This document shows, in pieces, positions 43,712 to 53,841 of a stretch of 64,000 nt of DNA. The notes below the pieces were generated by a model. It searched no databases and was not told the DNA's origin. It saw only the letters and a program-made list of their open reading frames with translations. Source of the stretch: Geodermatophilus sp. DSM 45219 (GTDB lineage: Bacteria; Actinomycetota; Actinomycetes; Mycobacteriales; Geodermatophilaceae); contig NZ_FNIQ01000009.1 in NCBI RefSeq assembly GCF_900104025.1, positions 62,001 to 126,000 on the forward strand, given 5' to 3'. Numbering within the stretch: position 1 is the stretch's first letter; each line of letters opens with the position of its first letter. Made by a program: the position numbers and the translations under genes.

Positions 43712-44710
43712 TCAGACGCCGGACAGCAGCCGCACGTGCCACGTGCGGCCGTGCGCGGCGTGCACCGCCCGGCAGGTCAGCGGCGCCGGCTCCTCCGACG
43801 GGCGGCTCTCCACCTCGGTGACCACGTCGCCGTCCGGACCGGCGAGGGTGACCACCCACCGCTCGACCTCCGCCCCCGCCGGGGTCAGCCGGCGCACCTC
43901 GCGGGGCGGCAGGTCGTCGACGCCGAGCAGCGCCAGCTCCTCGCGGGCGGTGTGCTGAGCCGCCTGCGCGGGCGCGGGCATCCCGGAGCGGCCGCGCAAC
44001 CAGGGCAGCGCGACCCGGCCGCCGGCGTGCGCGGCGACCAGCTCGGCGCCGTCCCCGGGGACCTGCCCGTAGTAGAAGCCGTGCGGCAGCACGAGCACGT
44101 TGCTGGCGAAGCGGCAGCCGCCCAGGTGGCTGCACTCCCACACGTCGGGAGCGGGCATCGTCCGGGCCAGCGGCCGCCCGCGCAGTGCGCAGCAGGCGTC
44201 GTGGGCGCCGTGCGCGCAGACCAGGTACAGCGGTGCGTCGCTGCGCTCGCCGACCGACCCGTCCCACGGCGCGTCGACCAGCTCGGCGTCGGTGTCGCGG
44301 ACCGACCACCACACGCCCTCGGCGCCGGGGCGGCCGTCGACGTAGGCCCAGCGCCGCTGCGAGTCGGCCAGTCTGTCGCCCGGACGGCGGATCAGCAGCA
44401 CCCGCACCTCCTCGGCCCGCGCCCGGTGCGCCAGCCGCGGCGCCACGGCGGGGTCGAACCGGGACTGGGTGAGCGCGTCGGCACCCCACGGGCCGGGCTG
44501 CTCCACCAGCAGCCAGCGCTGGGCCGGCGAGGCGGTGGCGACGCCGGAGTCACCGCGGACCAGGGCCTGCACCGAGCAGCGGTCCGCGGCGAGCCGGCCC
44601 GCTGGGAGGCCGGGGGCCGCGGGGACCCGGCAGAAGTCGGCCGGGGCCGTCACGCCCGCGGGTCCGGCCGGGTCACGGTCCGTTCCCGGGCGTGCGCTCA
44701 CGCCCCCCAT
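43712..44710 (-). CDS. Sucrase/ferredoxin-like (Apd1-type) 2Fe-2S protein
   Basis: 332-residue thioredoxin-like ferredoxin-family protein. The metal-binding motif CAHGAHDACCALRG and the following ECSHLGGCRFASN supply Cys and His residues as in yeast Apd1-type 2Fe-2S proteins; LPHGFYYGQV follows. It may carry electrons to a partner enzyme. ATG at 44710 has GGAG four bases upstream and overlaps the end of the cupin gene by 38 bp, so the two are co-expressed. GTG at 44701 is an alternative. It is the third gene of the repeat peptide-cupin-ferredoxin unit. Confidence 0.85.
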   Translation of the reverse strand: MGGVSARPGTDRDPAGPAGVTAPADFCRVPAAPGLPAGRLAADRCSVQALVRGDSGVATASPAQRWLLVEQPGPWGADALTQSRFDPAVAPRLAHRARAEEVRVLLIRRPGDRLADSQRRWAYVDGRPGAEGVWWSVRDTDAELVDAPWDGSVGERSDAPLYLVCAHGAHDACCALRGRPLARTMPAPDVWECSHLGGCRFASNVLVLPHGFYYGQVPGDGAELVAAHAGGRVALPWLRGRSGMPAPAQAAQHTAREELALLGVDDLPPREVRRLTPAGAEVERWVVTLAGPDGDVVTEVESRPSEEPAPLTCRAVHAAHGRTWHVRLLSGV

Positions 44711-45986
44711 GGTGCTCCGCGCTCGCCCCGGGCACGGTCGCGATCGACTCGGTCACCAGCCGCCGCGCCAGGGTGAGCTGGTCGGCGGCCTCGAGCCCGG
44801 GCAGGTCGGCGACCTTGAGCTCGCCGGCGGCCAGCAGCCCGGCCACGGCTTCCCGGGTCTCGGCGGGCAGCTCGAGGGAGCGCCGGCCGGCGACCAGGGT
44901 GACCCGGCCGGCGGCGGCCTCGCGCAGCTGGCAGCGCAGCCGGGCGCGCAGCCGGAGCACGGTGTCGGGGGAGAGGGCCGCGGCGGCGGTCGCCTGGGCC
45001 AGCGGGGCCACCGGTTCGGGGCGGACCTGCGACCAGGTGCGGGCGCGCAGCCGGTCGGCGACCTCGGCCGGGTCGACGCGGTCCAGCCAGCCCCGGAGCG
45101 CGGTGACGACCGTAGCGACGTCGTCGGCCACCGAGGCCGGGTCGGCGAGGTCGACGCCCAGCGGCAGCGAGCGGCGCAGCTCGGGGTCCTCGGCGGCGAG
45201 CACGCGCACGAGGTCGAGCGCGGACTCCGCCGCCGACCAGCGGGTCACCGAGTGGATCCCGACGGTCAGGTGCGCGCTGATCTCGCCCAGCGCCGTCGCC
45301 GAGTGCAGGTAGCCGCGCGGCAGGTAGAGCGCGTCCCCGGGGCGCAGCACCGCGTCGATCACCGGCTCGCGCTCGGCGGCGGCGGCCACGGCGGCGGCCC
45401 GGTCGTCCCACGGCTGGGTGCGCAGCGGGTCGGTCAGCACCGGCTCGTGGATGCGCCAGTGCTTCTCACCGGCGACCTGCAGCACGAACACGTCGTGGAC
45501 GTCGTAGTGCGGGGAGAACCCGCGCGAGGACGGCGGGGTGACGTAGGCGTTGACCTGCGTGGGGTGGCCGAGGTCGGCGGCGAGCTGGTCGGCGAACTCG
45601 ATCAGCGGTGGCCACAGCCGGTGCAGCCCCTGCAGGACGACGGTGCTCCCGTCGGCGAACAGCCGGAGCACCGCGTCGGAGGAGACCTGGTCGGCCACCT
45701 CCGCGCCGGCGCCGCCCGAGGTGGTGAAGCGCTTGGGGTCGACGACCGCGCCGTCCTTGGCGATCCGCAGGAACGGGGTGCGCAGCCCGCGGCGGGACAG
45801 CAGCTCGTCGACCGCGGGCAGGTCGAGCAGGTCGGCGAAGGAGTTGCCGGTGTCCTCCGCGCGCGACAGCAGCGGCCGGCGGGCCCAGTACTCCTCGGCG
45901 AAGACCCGCGGGTCGATGGGGGCGGTGCACCGACGCAGGGCCGGCCGGTCGCCCGGCCGGCCCTGCGCGGTGGGGTCCTCGGTCAG
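44673..45986 (-). CDS. JmjC-type cupin oxygenase (ribosomal-oxygenase-like)
   Basis: About 437-residue Fe(II)/2-oxoglutarate-dependent oxygenase of the JmjC_2/RoxA-like cupin family. The conserved N terminus is FAEEYWARRPLLS; the iron ligands are His160 and Asp162 in FSPHYDVHD and His228 in LPRGYLHSA. A C-terminal winged-helix-like region follows. No ATG, GTG or TTG lies in frame before the conserved N terminus; the only fitting start is the CTG at 45986, which overlaps the stop of the upstream repeat peptide (CTGA). A GTG at 45698 would remove 96 conserved residues. The position directly behind a repeat peptide suggests that the peptide may be the substrate. Confidence 0.8.
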   Translation of the reverse strand: MTEDPTAQGRPGDRPALRRCTAPIDPRVFAEEYWARRPLLSRAEDTGNSFADLLDLPAVDELLSRRGLRTPFLRIAKDGAVVDPKRFTTSGGAGAEVADQVSSDAVLRLFADGSTVVLQGLHRLWPPLIEFADQLAADLGHPTQVNAYVTPPSSRGFSPHYDVHDVFVLQVAGEKHWRIHEPVLTDPLRTQPWDDRAAAVAAAAEREPVIDAVLRPGDALYLPRGYLHSATALGEISAHLTVGIHSVTRWSAAESALDLVRVLAAEDPELRRSLPLGVDLADPASVADDVATVVTALRGWLDRVDPAEVADRLRARTWSQVRPEPVAPLAQATAAAALSPDTVLRLRARLRCQLREAAAGRVTLVAGRRSLELPAETREAVAGLLAAGELKVADLPGLEAADQLTLARRLVTESIATVPGASAEHHGGRERTPGNGP

Positions 45987-46273
45987 GCGGAACCGTCCGC
46001 GCCGCCGTCGGCGCCACCGTCCGCACCGCCGTCCGCACCGCCGTCGGCGCCACCATCCGCGCCACCGTCCGCACCGCCGTCGGCGCCACCGTCGGCGCCA
46101 CCGTCGGCACCGCCGTCCGAACCGCCGCCGGCAGCCCCGCCGTCGGCCGGGCCGTGGCCGGCGCCGCTGTCGGCCCCGCCGTCGGCACCGCCGTCCGAAC
46201 CGCCGCCGGCAGCCCCGCCGTCGGCCGGGCCGTGGCCCTCGGTGCTGGTCATGTCGTCGTCGTCGAGAGCCAT
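45983..46273 (-). CDS. Ala-Asp-Gly repeat peptide (possible precursor peptide)
   Basis: 96-residue peptide. After MALDDDDMTSTEGHGPADGG it is made almost only of Gly, Ala and Asp, ending in about a dozen exact GGAD-type four-residue repeats and the end ADGSA. A 24-residue block (GHGPADGGAAGGGSDGG and following) occurs twice. There are no Cys, Lys, Arg or aromatic residues. ATG at 46273 has GGAGA four bases upstream. The stop overlaps the cupin start, so the two are translationally coupled. The acidic leader-like start, short length, repeats and an adjacent oxygenase recall ribosomally made, modified peptides, but this is inference. It could also be a structural acidic protein. Confidence 0.65.
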   Translation of the reverse strand: MALDDDDMTSTEGHGPADGGAAGGGSDGGADGGADSGAGHGPADGGAAGGGSDGGADGGADGGADGGADGGADGGADGGADGGADGGADGGADGSA

Positions 46274-46460
46274 GGGGTCTCCATCACGTCGGGTTCCGGA
46301 CCGCCGGCCGGCGGCCCTCCGAAGGGTGCTGTACCTCCCGCATCCTGCTCTCACACACCGGCCGTGACCAGCGCGGACGGCGGGTGGGCGACGTCTCGGT
46401 CACGACGGCCGCGTCGACGTGCCGGAGCGGTGCCGCAGGCGTTAGCGTCCTCCGGTCAGG

Positions 46461-46487: not shown

Positions 46488-47687
46488 ATGGCGTCGTCCC
46501 GTGCCGCCGGGTGCACCGTGCTGCACGTCGACATGGACGCGTTCTTCGCCAGCGTCGAGGTGCGCCGCCGCCCGGAGCTGGCCGGCACGCCGGTGGTCGT
46601 GGGCGGGGCCGGCAACCGCGGGGTGGTCACCTCAGCCACCTACGAGGCGCGCCGCTACGGGGTGCACGCGGCGATGCCGACGTCCCGCGCGCTGCGGCTG
46701 TGCCCGACGGCGACGGTGCTGCCGGGGGACATGGCGCTCTACGCCGAGGTGTCTCGCTCGGTCATGGCGCTGTTCCGCTCGATCACGCCGCTGGTGGAGC
46801 CGCTGAGCCTGGACGAGGCCTTCCTCGACGTCGGCGGCAGCGGACGGCGGCTGGGCGACGCCGCGGAGATCGGCGAGTACCTGCGCGCCCGCGTCTTCGA
46901 CGAGCAGGGGATCACCTGCTCGGTGGGCGTGGCCGGCACCAAGTTCGTGGCCAAGCTCGCCTCCACCGCGGCCAAGCCCGACGGGCTGCTCGTCGTCCGG
47001 CCGGCCGAGGTCATGGCGTTCCTCCACCCGCTGCCGGTCGGCGCGCTGTGGGGGGTGGGCGCCAAGACCGAGGAGGTGCTGCTGCGGCTGGGGCTGCGCA
47101 CCGTCGGTGACCTCGCGCACGTCCCGGTGCGCACGCTGCAGCGGGCGGTGGGTCCGGCGGCCGGCGCGCACCTGCACGAGCTGTCCTGGGGCCGCGACCC
47201 GCGCCGGGTGGTGCCCGACGAGCCGGAGAAGTCCACCGGGCACGAGGAGACCTTCGGCACGGACGTCGACGACCCGGCGGTGATCCACCGCGAGCTGCTG
47301 CGGCTGTCGGAGCGGACGGCGGGCCGGCTGCGCTCGGGCGGCTGGCTGGCCCGCACGGTGACGATCAAGGTGCGCTTCGCCGACTTCGCCACGATCACCC
47401 GCAGCCGCACCCTCGACGTCCCCAGCGACGTCGGGCAGGAGCTCTACGACACCGCCCGCGCGCTGTTCGACGCCCTGGGTCTGGACCGGGCCCGCATCCG
47501 GCTGGTCGGCGTGCGGGCCGAGCGGCTGGTGCAGGCCGGGTCGACACCCCGGCAGCTGGAGCTGGGCGCCCGGGAGCACGGCCGCCGCGAGGCCGAGCTC
47601 GCCGCCGACCGGGCCGCCCGCCGGTTCGGCGCCGGCGCGGTCCGCCCCGCGACGCTGCTGCCCCGCGACGGGTGGCGCGCCCGGTGA
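46488..47687 (+). CDS. dinB: DNA polymerase IV
   Basis: 399-residue Y-family translesion polymerase. Catalytic motifs are VLHVDMDAFFASVE (first Asp) and PLSLDEAFLDV (Asp-Glu); the steric-gate aromatic pair FF follows the first motif. The helix-hairpin-helix (ALWGVGAKTEEVLLRLGLRTVGDL) and the little-finger domain are complete. The C terminus lacks an obvious beta-clamp pentapeptide; QLELG near residue 363 may serve. ATG at 46488 has GAGGAGG upstream. A perfect LexA box in the leader makes it part of the same SOS response as the dnaE2 operon. Confidence 0.95.
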   Translation: MASSRAAGCTVLHVDMDAFFASVEVRRRPELAGTPVVVGGAGNRGVVTSATYEARRYGVHAAMPTSRALRLCPTATVLPGDMALYAEVSRSVMALFRSITPLVEPLSLDEAFLDVGGSGRRLGDAAEIGEYLRARVFDEQGITCSVGVAGTKFVAKLASTAAKPDGLLVVRPAEVMAFLHPLPVGALWGVGAKTEEVLLRLGLRTVGDLAHVPVRTLQRAVGPAAGAHLHELSWGRDPRRVVPDEPEKSTGHEETFGTDVDDPAVIHRELLRLSERTAGRLRSGGWLARTVTIKVRFADFATITRSRTLDVPSDVGQELYDTARALFDALGLDRARIRLVGVRAERLVQAGSTPRQLELGAREHGRREAELAADRAARRFGAGAVRPATLLPRDGWRAR

Positions 47688-53600: not shown

Positions 53601-53609
<9 letters not shown>

Positions 53610-53841
53610 GCAGCCTCCTCGCTGGCGCTCGTCGGCCGCGTGCCCGACGGTGCTCTTCCCCTGTGCGACCTCGCGAGCTCGGTCACGAAGCCTCCCCGCT
53701 GGCGCTCGTCGGCCGCGGGCCCGACGGTGCTATTCCCCTGGGTGACCTCGCGAGCTCGGTCACGAAGCCTCCCCGCTGGCGCTCGTCGGCCGCGTGCCCG
53801 ACGGTGCTCTTCCCCTGCGTGACCTGGTGCGCTCGGTCACG
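53601..53841. repeat. 77-bp tandem repeat, three copies, covering the moxR start
   Basis: The marker CTCGGTCACG recurs at 53601, 53678, 53755 and 53832, exactly 77 bp apart. The copies differ at only a few bases (for example GTG/GGG near the centre). On the minus strand each copy carries a GAGG/GGAGG site and GTGACCGAG, that is, the moxR ribosome site and first three codons, so three tandem translation starts are present; 77 is not a multiple of three, so the upstream ones are out of frame. Confidence 0.88.

Follow-up and report, generated by a model that had tools for sequence, protein, structure and literature searches.

A conserved repeat peptide, JmjC-type oxygenase and 2Fe-2S protein cassette in Actinomycetota points to an undescribed peptide-modification system

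Why should a gene for a short repeat peptide rich in Gly, Ala and Asp share its stop codon with the probable start of an iron-dependent oxygenase? The question is raised by a 64,000-nucleotide stretch of the Geodermatophilus sp. DSM 45219 genome (contig NZ_FNIQ01000009.1, positions 62,001 to 126,000), here called the window. In this work, we analyzed the peptide, the JmjC-type oxygenase (a cupin) and the Suc_Fer-like 2Fe-2S protein encoded next to it, and found that they form a real and widely conserved cassette. The results point to a peptide-modification system that is widespread and, as far as the open-licence literature goes, undescribed. Of the explanations considered, the best one overall, which we hold to be probable, is that the GGAD peptide is a dedicated substrate hydroxylated many times by the oxygenase. 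The features concerned are the following, in window coordinates:

45983..46273, minus strand: open reading frame (ORF) of the GGAD-repeat peptide, 96 aa, with an ATG start; the proposed substrate.
44673..45986, minus strand: JmjC_2 2-oxoglutarate oxygenase of the ribosomal-oxygenase (ROX) fold, 437 aa from the CTG, assigned by Pfam and alignment; the proposed peptide Asp hydroxylase.
45984..45986, minus strand: probable CTG start of the cupin, lying over the peptide TGA (CTGA).
43712..44710, minus strand: Suc_Fer-like (thioredoxin-like) 2Fe-2S protein, 332 aa, assigned by Pfam; a proposed electron donor or ferric reductase.
46332..46356, minus strand: promoter-like element GTGT-N15-GAGGTA, with its end 58 bp upstream of the peptide ATG.

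Each of the three ORFs overlaps the next on the minus strand, the Suc_Fer ATG (44710) sitting before the 3' end of the cupin (44673), and the overlapping trio of peptide, iron-binding cupin and 2Fe-2S protein described in a first-pass annotation of this DNA is thus confirmed. The same annotation had described a 96-residue peptide with an acidic start, GGAD-type repeats and no Lys, Cys or aromatic residues, which agrees with the ORF and its composition (G40 A21 D20 S5 M2 T2 H2 P2 L1 E1), and its iron ligands (His160-x-Asp162, His228) are numbered correctly when the CTG is taken as residue 1.

The evidence that carries the cassette is its conservation. Loci were picked by cupin similarity alone, giving 219 distinct ones: 90 from genomes of the family (most likely Geodermatophilaceae), 49 from scans of the order and phylum, and 80 from named genomes, the last being the best 80 of 569 confirmed places. 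The cupin was present in 108 of 112 family genomes, in 248 of 397 order genomes (E<=0.001, weak matches included) and in 39 of 396 phylum genomes (E<=1e-40), and the named set includes Streptomyces, Arthrobacter, Pseudarthrobacter, Brevibacterium, Brachybacterium, Leucobacter, Nocardioides, Terrabacter, Pseudonocardia, Kineosporia and others. A script called an Asp-rich ORF directly upstream of the cupin at 216 of the 219 loci; after the odd cases had been read individually, an Asp-rich repeat ORF stood upstream at 216 of 218 testable loci (90/90, 48/49 and 78/79 in the three sets). This count includes L122, whose peptide the script had missed, and L202, whose peptide is fused to the cupin, and it leaves aside L189, which has only 121 bases of upstream sequence. 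Near-copies are few among the loci, L089 and L230 being apparently one metagenome-assembled genome. Co-occurrence in distant genera, which the first-pass annotation had set as a check, is therefore strongly positive, extending to Streptomyces, Arthrobacter, Brevibacterium, Nocardioides and other classes. A short precursor gene beside a modifying enzyme, kept across taxa, is also what is expected of ribosomally synthesized and post-translationally modified peptides (RiPPs). As an observation in its own right, the repeat peptide of L202 (Streptomyces sp. WAC08241) runs in frame into the cupin as one protein, either a natural fusion or a sequencing slip.

The association also holds when searched from the side of the peptide. 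A DNA pattern for HDGGADG occurred at least twice in 90 order genomes outside the family, and 86 of these carry the cupin at E<=1e-60; in the remaining four the matches lie on separate contigs. As a control, the reversed pattern hit 3 of 397 genomes.

A further comparison was made with more distant enzymes. Searching 246 class genomes with PF08007 gave 30 loci, to which 20 further ones were added; six close ones had already been counted. All 23 loci near the window cupin have an Asp-rich repeat peptide, and 21 of the 27 remote JmjC_2 loci have different short Asp-Gly peptides directly upstream, with no recognisable one at the other six. Named by eye, the remote classes comprise nine EVEVEDLAEVTSRDITAGGDSDGTDSSSDFI-like peptides, six SDGGGTGRSD-like, four DPDGSDG-like and two GENRDG-like ones. 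When peptide class was mapped onto a tree of 60 enzymes, 9 changes were required, with 7 as the minimum; shuffled labels required 36.5 on average, and none of 200 shuffles came as low. The GGAD clade, L127 included, has a support of 100/100. Peptide class thus follows enzyme clade; since near-copies make any label cluster, the tree gives association, not causation. Altogether, co-occurrence, reverse scan and tree bear out the proposal that peptide and cupin belong together, and the peptide is very probably the substrate of the oxygenase, judging from these sequence comparisons.

Two groups of remote loci deserve separate description. At L266-L267, L270-L276 and L285-L307, a 32-38-aa precursor ending in DGTDSSSDFI is accompanied by an S9 prolyl oligopeptidase and partly by FhuF behind an IdeR-like box. 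By BLAST clustering, the DGTDSSSDFI-type clusters carry the S9 gene at 9 of 9 loci, the only clusters with this peptidase, and an FhuF-like gene at 5; the DPDGSDG-type clusters have Suc_Fer at 4 of 4. One member of each type was checked in Pfam, where S9, Suc_Fer and FhuF_C scored above their cut-offs and FhuF below. The DGTDSSSDFI clusters look like iron-regulated RiPP clusters. At L234-L236, L238, L245, L252 and L308-L309, JmjC_2 lies behind short peptides ending like SDGGGTGRSDxND, in some cases with an aldo/keto-reductase-like gene downstream (by eye).

The window peptide consists of an acidic leader, MALDDDDMTSTEG, followed by PADGGA/SDGGAD modules and a GGAD array ending in GGADGSA*. Among its 11 consecutive in-phase repeat 12-mers (55 pairs), 98 differences fall at third codon positions versus 30 at first and second positions together, an excess that fits selection on the protein and argues against a chance ORF; a similar count inside DGGA motifs was dropped as circular, and only the unconditioned 12-mers were kept. 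No match to the window peptide was found in Pfam or NCBIfam at E<=1, nor to four of its relatives in Pfam at E<=10, and a lone weak NCBIfam match of the relatives to accessory_MacP (E 0.081, 13.4 of 45 bits) was taken as chance. Every upstream ORF taken, in all three sets, contains Asp, Gly and Ala, with a mean of 16-20 Asp per peptide, mostly preceded by Ala and followed by Gly. His is found in 84, 71 and 85% of the peptides and Lys in 10, 27 and 8% (family, order/phylum and named sets); Cys and aromatic residues are uncommon, and Asn is missing from most. Loci from other classes (L136-L152), whose cupins are 37-41% identical, carry DADGTDGD, TDGD or GTDQG...YGPRDA units as repeats. The leader type is kept across classes (TDEDI, SDDDI and DEDI versus NDDDI and DDDDM) while the cores pass from GGAD to DADG/TDGD; a conserved DDDI/DDDM-type leader with a variable core is again RiPP-like, apart from the peptides of Streptomyces and Arthrobacter, which have other leaders (PEQDPNQ and others). 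In one genome (G032, locus L029), the GGAD peptide is preceded by a second GGAD ORF whose leader, MTTIPENDPPRGG..., is different, which gives two putative precursors at one locus.

The cupin matches PF08007 (JmjC_2) with E 2.5e-28 and 98.6 bits against a cut-off of 22, and the ROX fold over nearly its full length (residues 13-421), with the NO66 family as the nearest structures. By alignment, the Fe ligands are H160, D162 and H228 and the 2-oxoglutarate lysine is K175; the HxD...H triad and this lysine are invariant in 32 of 32 enzymes and the same four residues in 60 of 60, and across all 54 peptide-linked enzymes in the comparison the catalytic pocket shows no variation. The catalytic centre is, on sequence grounds, intact. 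The ribosomal oxygenases differ at a substrate contact: where NO66 and MINA53 have the Ser that contacts the substrate His (Ser421/Ser257), the 54 peptide-linked enzymes invariably have Gly243, a mapping that relies on the 93 residues from Tyr328 to Ser421, equal in the alignment. A plasmid search with the cupin returned 31 records, all below 60% identity and with less than 80% of the query covered.

How the enzyme is started bears on how it is tied to the peptide. In the window, the cupin frame has no ATG, GTG or TTG until an internal GTG at 45698, inside the conserved domain, and a CTG lying over the peptide TGA is in the cupin frame at 88 of 90 distinct family loci. Sixty-seven family loci have no canonical start from 30 bases before the peptide stop to the conserved RPALRRC motif; in a further 20 a GTG lies slightly downstream of the CTG, L044 (G107) has a GTG at the position of the CTG, and at L068 peptide and cupin share one frame, so that the start there is ambiguous. 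Of 20 loci outside the family but within the order, 18 show a cupin-frame GTG or ATG near or before the match and still have the peptide; the two without (L110 and L114) again show an in-frame CTG over the peptide TGA. The CTG at 45986 is most likely the cupin start, used by reinitiation after the peptide stop. A programmed frameshift into the cupin is disfavoured, as the sequence ahead of the junction is variable (GSA*, GGA*, GQA*, RPV*) while CTGA is kept, and as L044 has GTG there. Upstream of the operon, GTGT-N15-GAGGTA recurs at 54 of 88 family loci, where shuffled sequences predict 0.01, the pattern having been read off the same loci; the whole genome has 2 exact copies, and 1 of the reversed control. 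We presume a loose resemblance of this element to stress-sigma promoters.

The third gene encodes a protein matching PF06999 (E 7.3e-15, 56 bits against a cut-off of 34.9), with CAHGAHDACC...WECSHLGGCR as its ligand region and CxHGxHDxCCA...[ST]HxGG[DC]R as the usual motif across loci. Counting duplicates, Suc_Fer follows the cupin at 102 of 103 family loci, L090 at a contig end being the one without it; it also does so at 41 of the 49 loci from the scans and, by tblastn, at 69 of the 80 named ones, and part of the remainder are cut by the end of the sequence. Rough gene calls within 4 kb at the 80 named loci, which recovered Suc_Fer in only 41 of the 80, show no other widely recurring gene besides the pair, and extra RiPP enzymes were not seen to recur near it. 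One group of similar genes, which by eye looks like a generic ABC ATPase, occurs at 10 of these loci, on both strands and at a median distance of 3 kb.

In the mechanism that we propose, the enzyme would bind the peptide at its acidic leader or its repeats and would use Fe(II), O2 and 2-oxoglutarate to hydroxylate it repeatedly, most likely at the Asp beta-carbon in x-Asp-Gly settings, to give a Gly/Ala peptide with many beta-hydroxyaspartates. Asp is probably the modified residue: nothing observed conflicts with it, and apart from Gly it is the residue common to all peptide classes. If the peptide stop indeed overlaps the CTG start, the enzyme would be made only by ribosomes fresh from translating the substrate. 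Suc_Fer would supply electrons, most likely to Fe(III) on the peptide and less likely to the oxygenase iron. The first-pass annotation had it keeping the cupin iron reduced, which may be so; the paralogous clusters speak more for a ferric reductase, and Suc_Fer was not found at 11 of the 80 named loci. What the sequences show is gene order, conservation of the pair, the intact centre and the match of clade and class; the modification itself, its placement on Asp, metal binding and the 2Fe-2S role are our inferences.

Beta-hydroxyaspartate is a known type of hard-metal ligand. The paralogous clusters, in which FhuF or Suc_Fer stands beside IdeR-like boxes, hint at an iron role; this clue is taken from relatives and is no finding on the GGAD operon. 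In a partly overlapping set of 25 paralog enzymes, 10 have FhuF within 1.5 kb downstream, and all 10 have an IdeR-like box directly behind the cupin scoring 15-16 of 19 (shuffled maximum 14) against what we take to be the IdeR/DtxR consensus; the best scores are 11-13 of 19 for the 15 without FhuF and 15-17 of 19 for the four DPDGSDG loci. For the GGAD system, an iron or metal role is possible, if doubtful, by analogy. Still more tentatively, it may be speculated that Actinobacteria make ribosomal iron ligands, that is, JmjC-made beta-hydroxyaspartate chelators in which three or four Asp per short core or canonical module would form one hexadentate Fe(III) site, and whose iron is released by a Suc_Fer or FhuF reductase, the GGAD peptides serving as a polymeric intracellular or wall iron buffer and the DGTDSSSDFI, SDGGGTGRSD and DPDGSDG peptides as secreted ribosomal siderophores.

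Other explanations have to be weighed against this one. The cupin could be a ribosomal oxygenase of the NO66/MINA53/YcfD kind, with the peptide as a pseudo-substrate inhibitor or as an upstream ORF whose overlap at CTGA governs how much enzyme is translated. The full-length ROX fold, the proximity to NO66, the coupling to a weak CTG start in nearly the whole family and the inhibition of NO66 and MINA53 by unhydroxylated analogue peptides, reported in PMC9994133, speak for it; yet the Ser contacting the substrate His is an invariant Gly here, a mere upstream ORF should have little reason to preserve Asp-rich repeats and a leader from class to class or to switch class with the enzyme, and the loci of other order families that start the cupin at GTG or ATG keep the peptide nonetheless. 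We regard this reading as unlikely. That the cupin acts on the peptide but targets His, Asn, Ala or Gly in place of Asp, or performs some different oxidation, desaturation for example, appears somewhat less probable again: HDGGADG is frequent, NO66 and MINA53 are His hydroxylases, and Gly and Ala occur just as universally as Asp across the three sets, but part of the peptides lack His and most lack Asn, the AspRep class keeps Asp though the GGA context is gone, and the His-binding Ser is lost. It would be quite improbable, finally, for the peptide to be an unmodified hydrophilin-like stress protein (Gly-rich, disordered, cytosolic or exported) that shares the operon by chance; its hydrophilic, Gly-rich composition would suit this, as would a promoter element that is not IdeR-like and may bear a loose resemblance to stress-sigma promoters, whereas the pair is kept in different surroundings and no cupin-less genome of the order scan has at least two HDGGADG matches on one contig.

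Several observations weigh against a dedicated substrate hydroxylated on Asp, or against parts of that explanation. The nearest PDB relatives of the cupin modify ribosomal proteins, an activity that the cupin may share. Absence or decay of the peptide beside orthologous cupins, named at the outset as what would refute the pairing, was seen among the 218 loci only at L224, a script false positive without any recognisable peptide, and partly at L127, where the upstream ORF is acidic but unrepeated; from the order scan, the count covers cupin matches with E no higher than 1e-60. On the tree, L263, a remote Streptomyces cupin without a peptide, falls among the AspRep enzymes, and single HDGGADG matches also occur in cupin-less genomes (e.g. 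G117 and G131). A rule of exactly three Asp per module, seen in 70 of 120 named and 16 of 34 scan modules, fails family-wide (11 of 80). IdeR/DtxR control of the GGAD operon was rejected, the best scores at 203 GGAD-type loci being like those of shuffles with the same consensus. The named loci in which Suc_Fer was not found within the stretch examined count here as well. Many RiPP clusters carry protease or RiPP recognition element (RRE)-like genes, and none recurred in the rough gene calls.

Nothing on these peptides appeared among the open-licence PMC matches listed, subscription papers being outside the scope, and the strings GGADGGA, GPADGGA, HDGGADG, DGTDSSSDF, SDGGGTGRSD and TSRDITAGG were in no open-licence paper searched. 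If the proposed modification is correct, it would represent a large overlooked class of ribosomal peptide modification, carried out by one recurring enzyme of ribosomal-oxygenase type and wide in Actinomycetota, and would provide a native-substrate candidate for the bacterial JmjC_2 branch, whose best-known relatives act on ribosomes. The conserved CTG start over the stop codon of the substrate would be an unusual coupling of enzyme and substrate synthesis. Hydroxyaspartate ligands are known from non-ribosomal siderophores; products that bind iron would add a ribosomal route to them. Elsewhere in the window, a divergent ORF at 46488-47687 (plus strand) looks by eye like a DNA polymerase IV (DinB), no search having been made, and a tandem repeat lies at 53601-53841 (77-bp unit, 3.1 copies, 92% matches).

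With respect to known systems, the cupin shares with NO66 (RIOX1), MINA53 (RIOX2) and YcfD the JmjC_2 family PF08007, a near full-length fold, the HxD...H triad with its Lys and the Tyr328 equivalent; it differs in being only 18-26% identical to them in the structure alignment, in having His164 and Gly243, both invariant, at the positions taken by Ile and Ser421 in NO66, and in its place behind a small Asp-rich peptide gene. To the aspartyl/asparaginyl beta-hydroxylases FIH and AspH, which according to PMC9994133 hydroxylate Asp or Asn at C-3, it would be alike in the proposed chemistry only. The window 2Fe-2S protein belongs with Aim32/Apd1 in PF06999 and has their Cys spacing (CX7C/CX8C); in contrast to the Aim32-type motif CX8CXnHX3H, as given in PMC8482512, the second His of HX3H is replaced by Asp, Cys or Glu in the Suc_Fer proteins here, so that the bishistidinyl ligand pattern is lacking while the Cys pattern and the Pfam match are present. 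The FhuF ferric-siderophore reductases offer a parallel in the paralogous clusters, as 2Fe-2S-type proteins beside JmjC_2 and an Asp/Gly peptide; the GGAD operon has Suc_Fer in their place. A 2-oxoglutarate oxygenase acting on a ribosomal peptide is already known in principle from BipG/BpmG and PbsQ of the biphenomycins, JmjC or cupin-like enzymes that hydroxylate ornithine (Orn) in a ribosomal precursor (PMC12707348 and PMC12257519). Going by those descriptions, they act on one Orn after a multinuclear non-heme iron-dependent oxidative enzyme (MNIO) and an arginase, whereas in the cassette described here no other modifying enzyme recurs and many Asp would be the targets.

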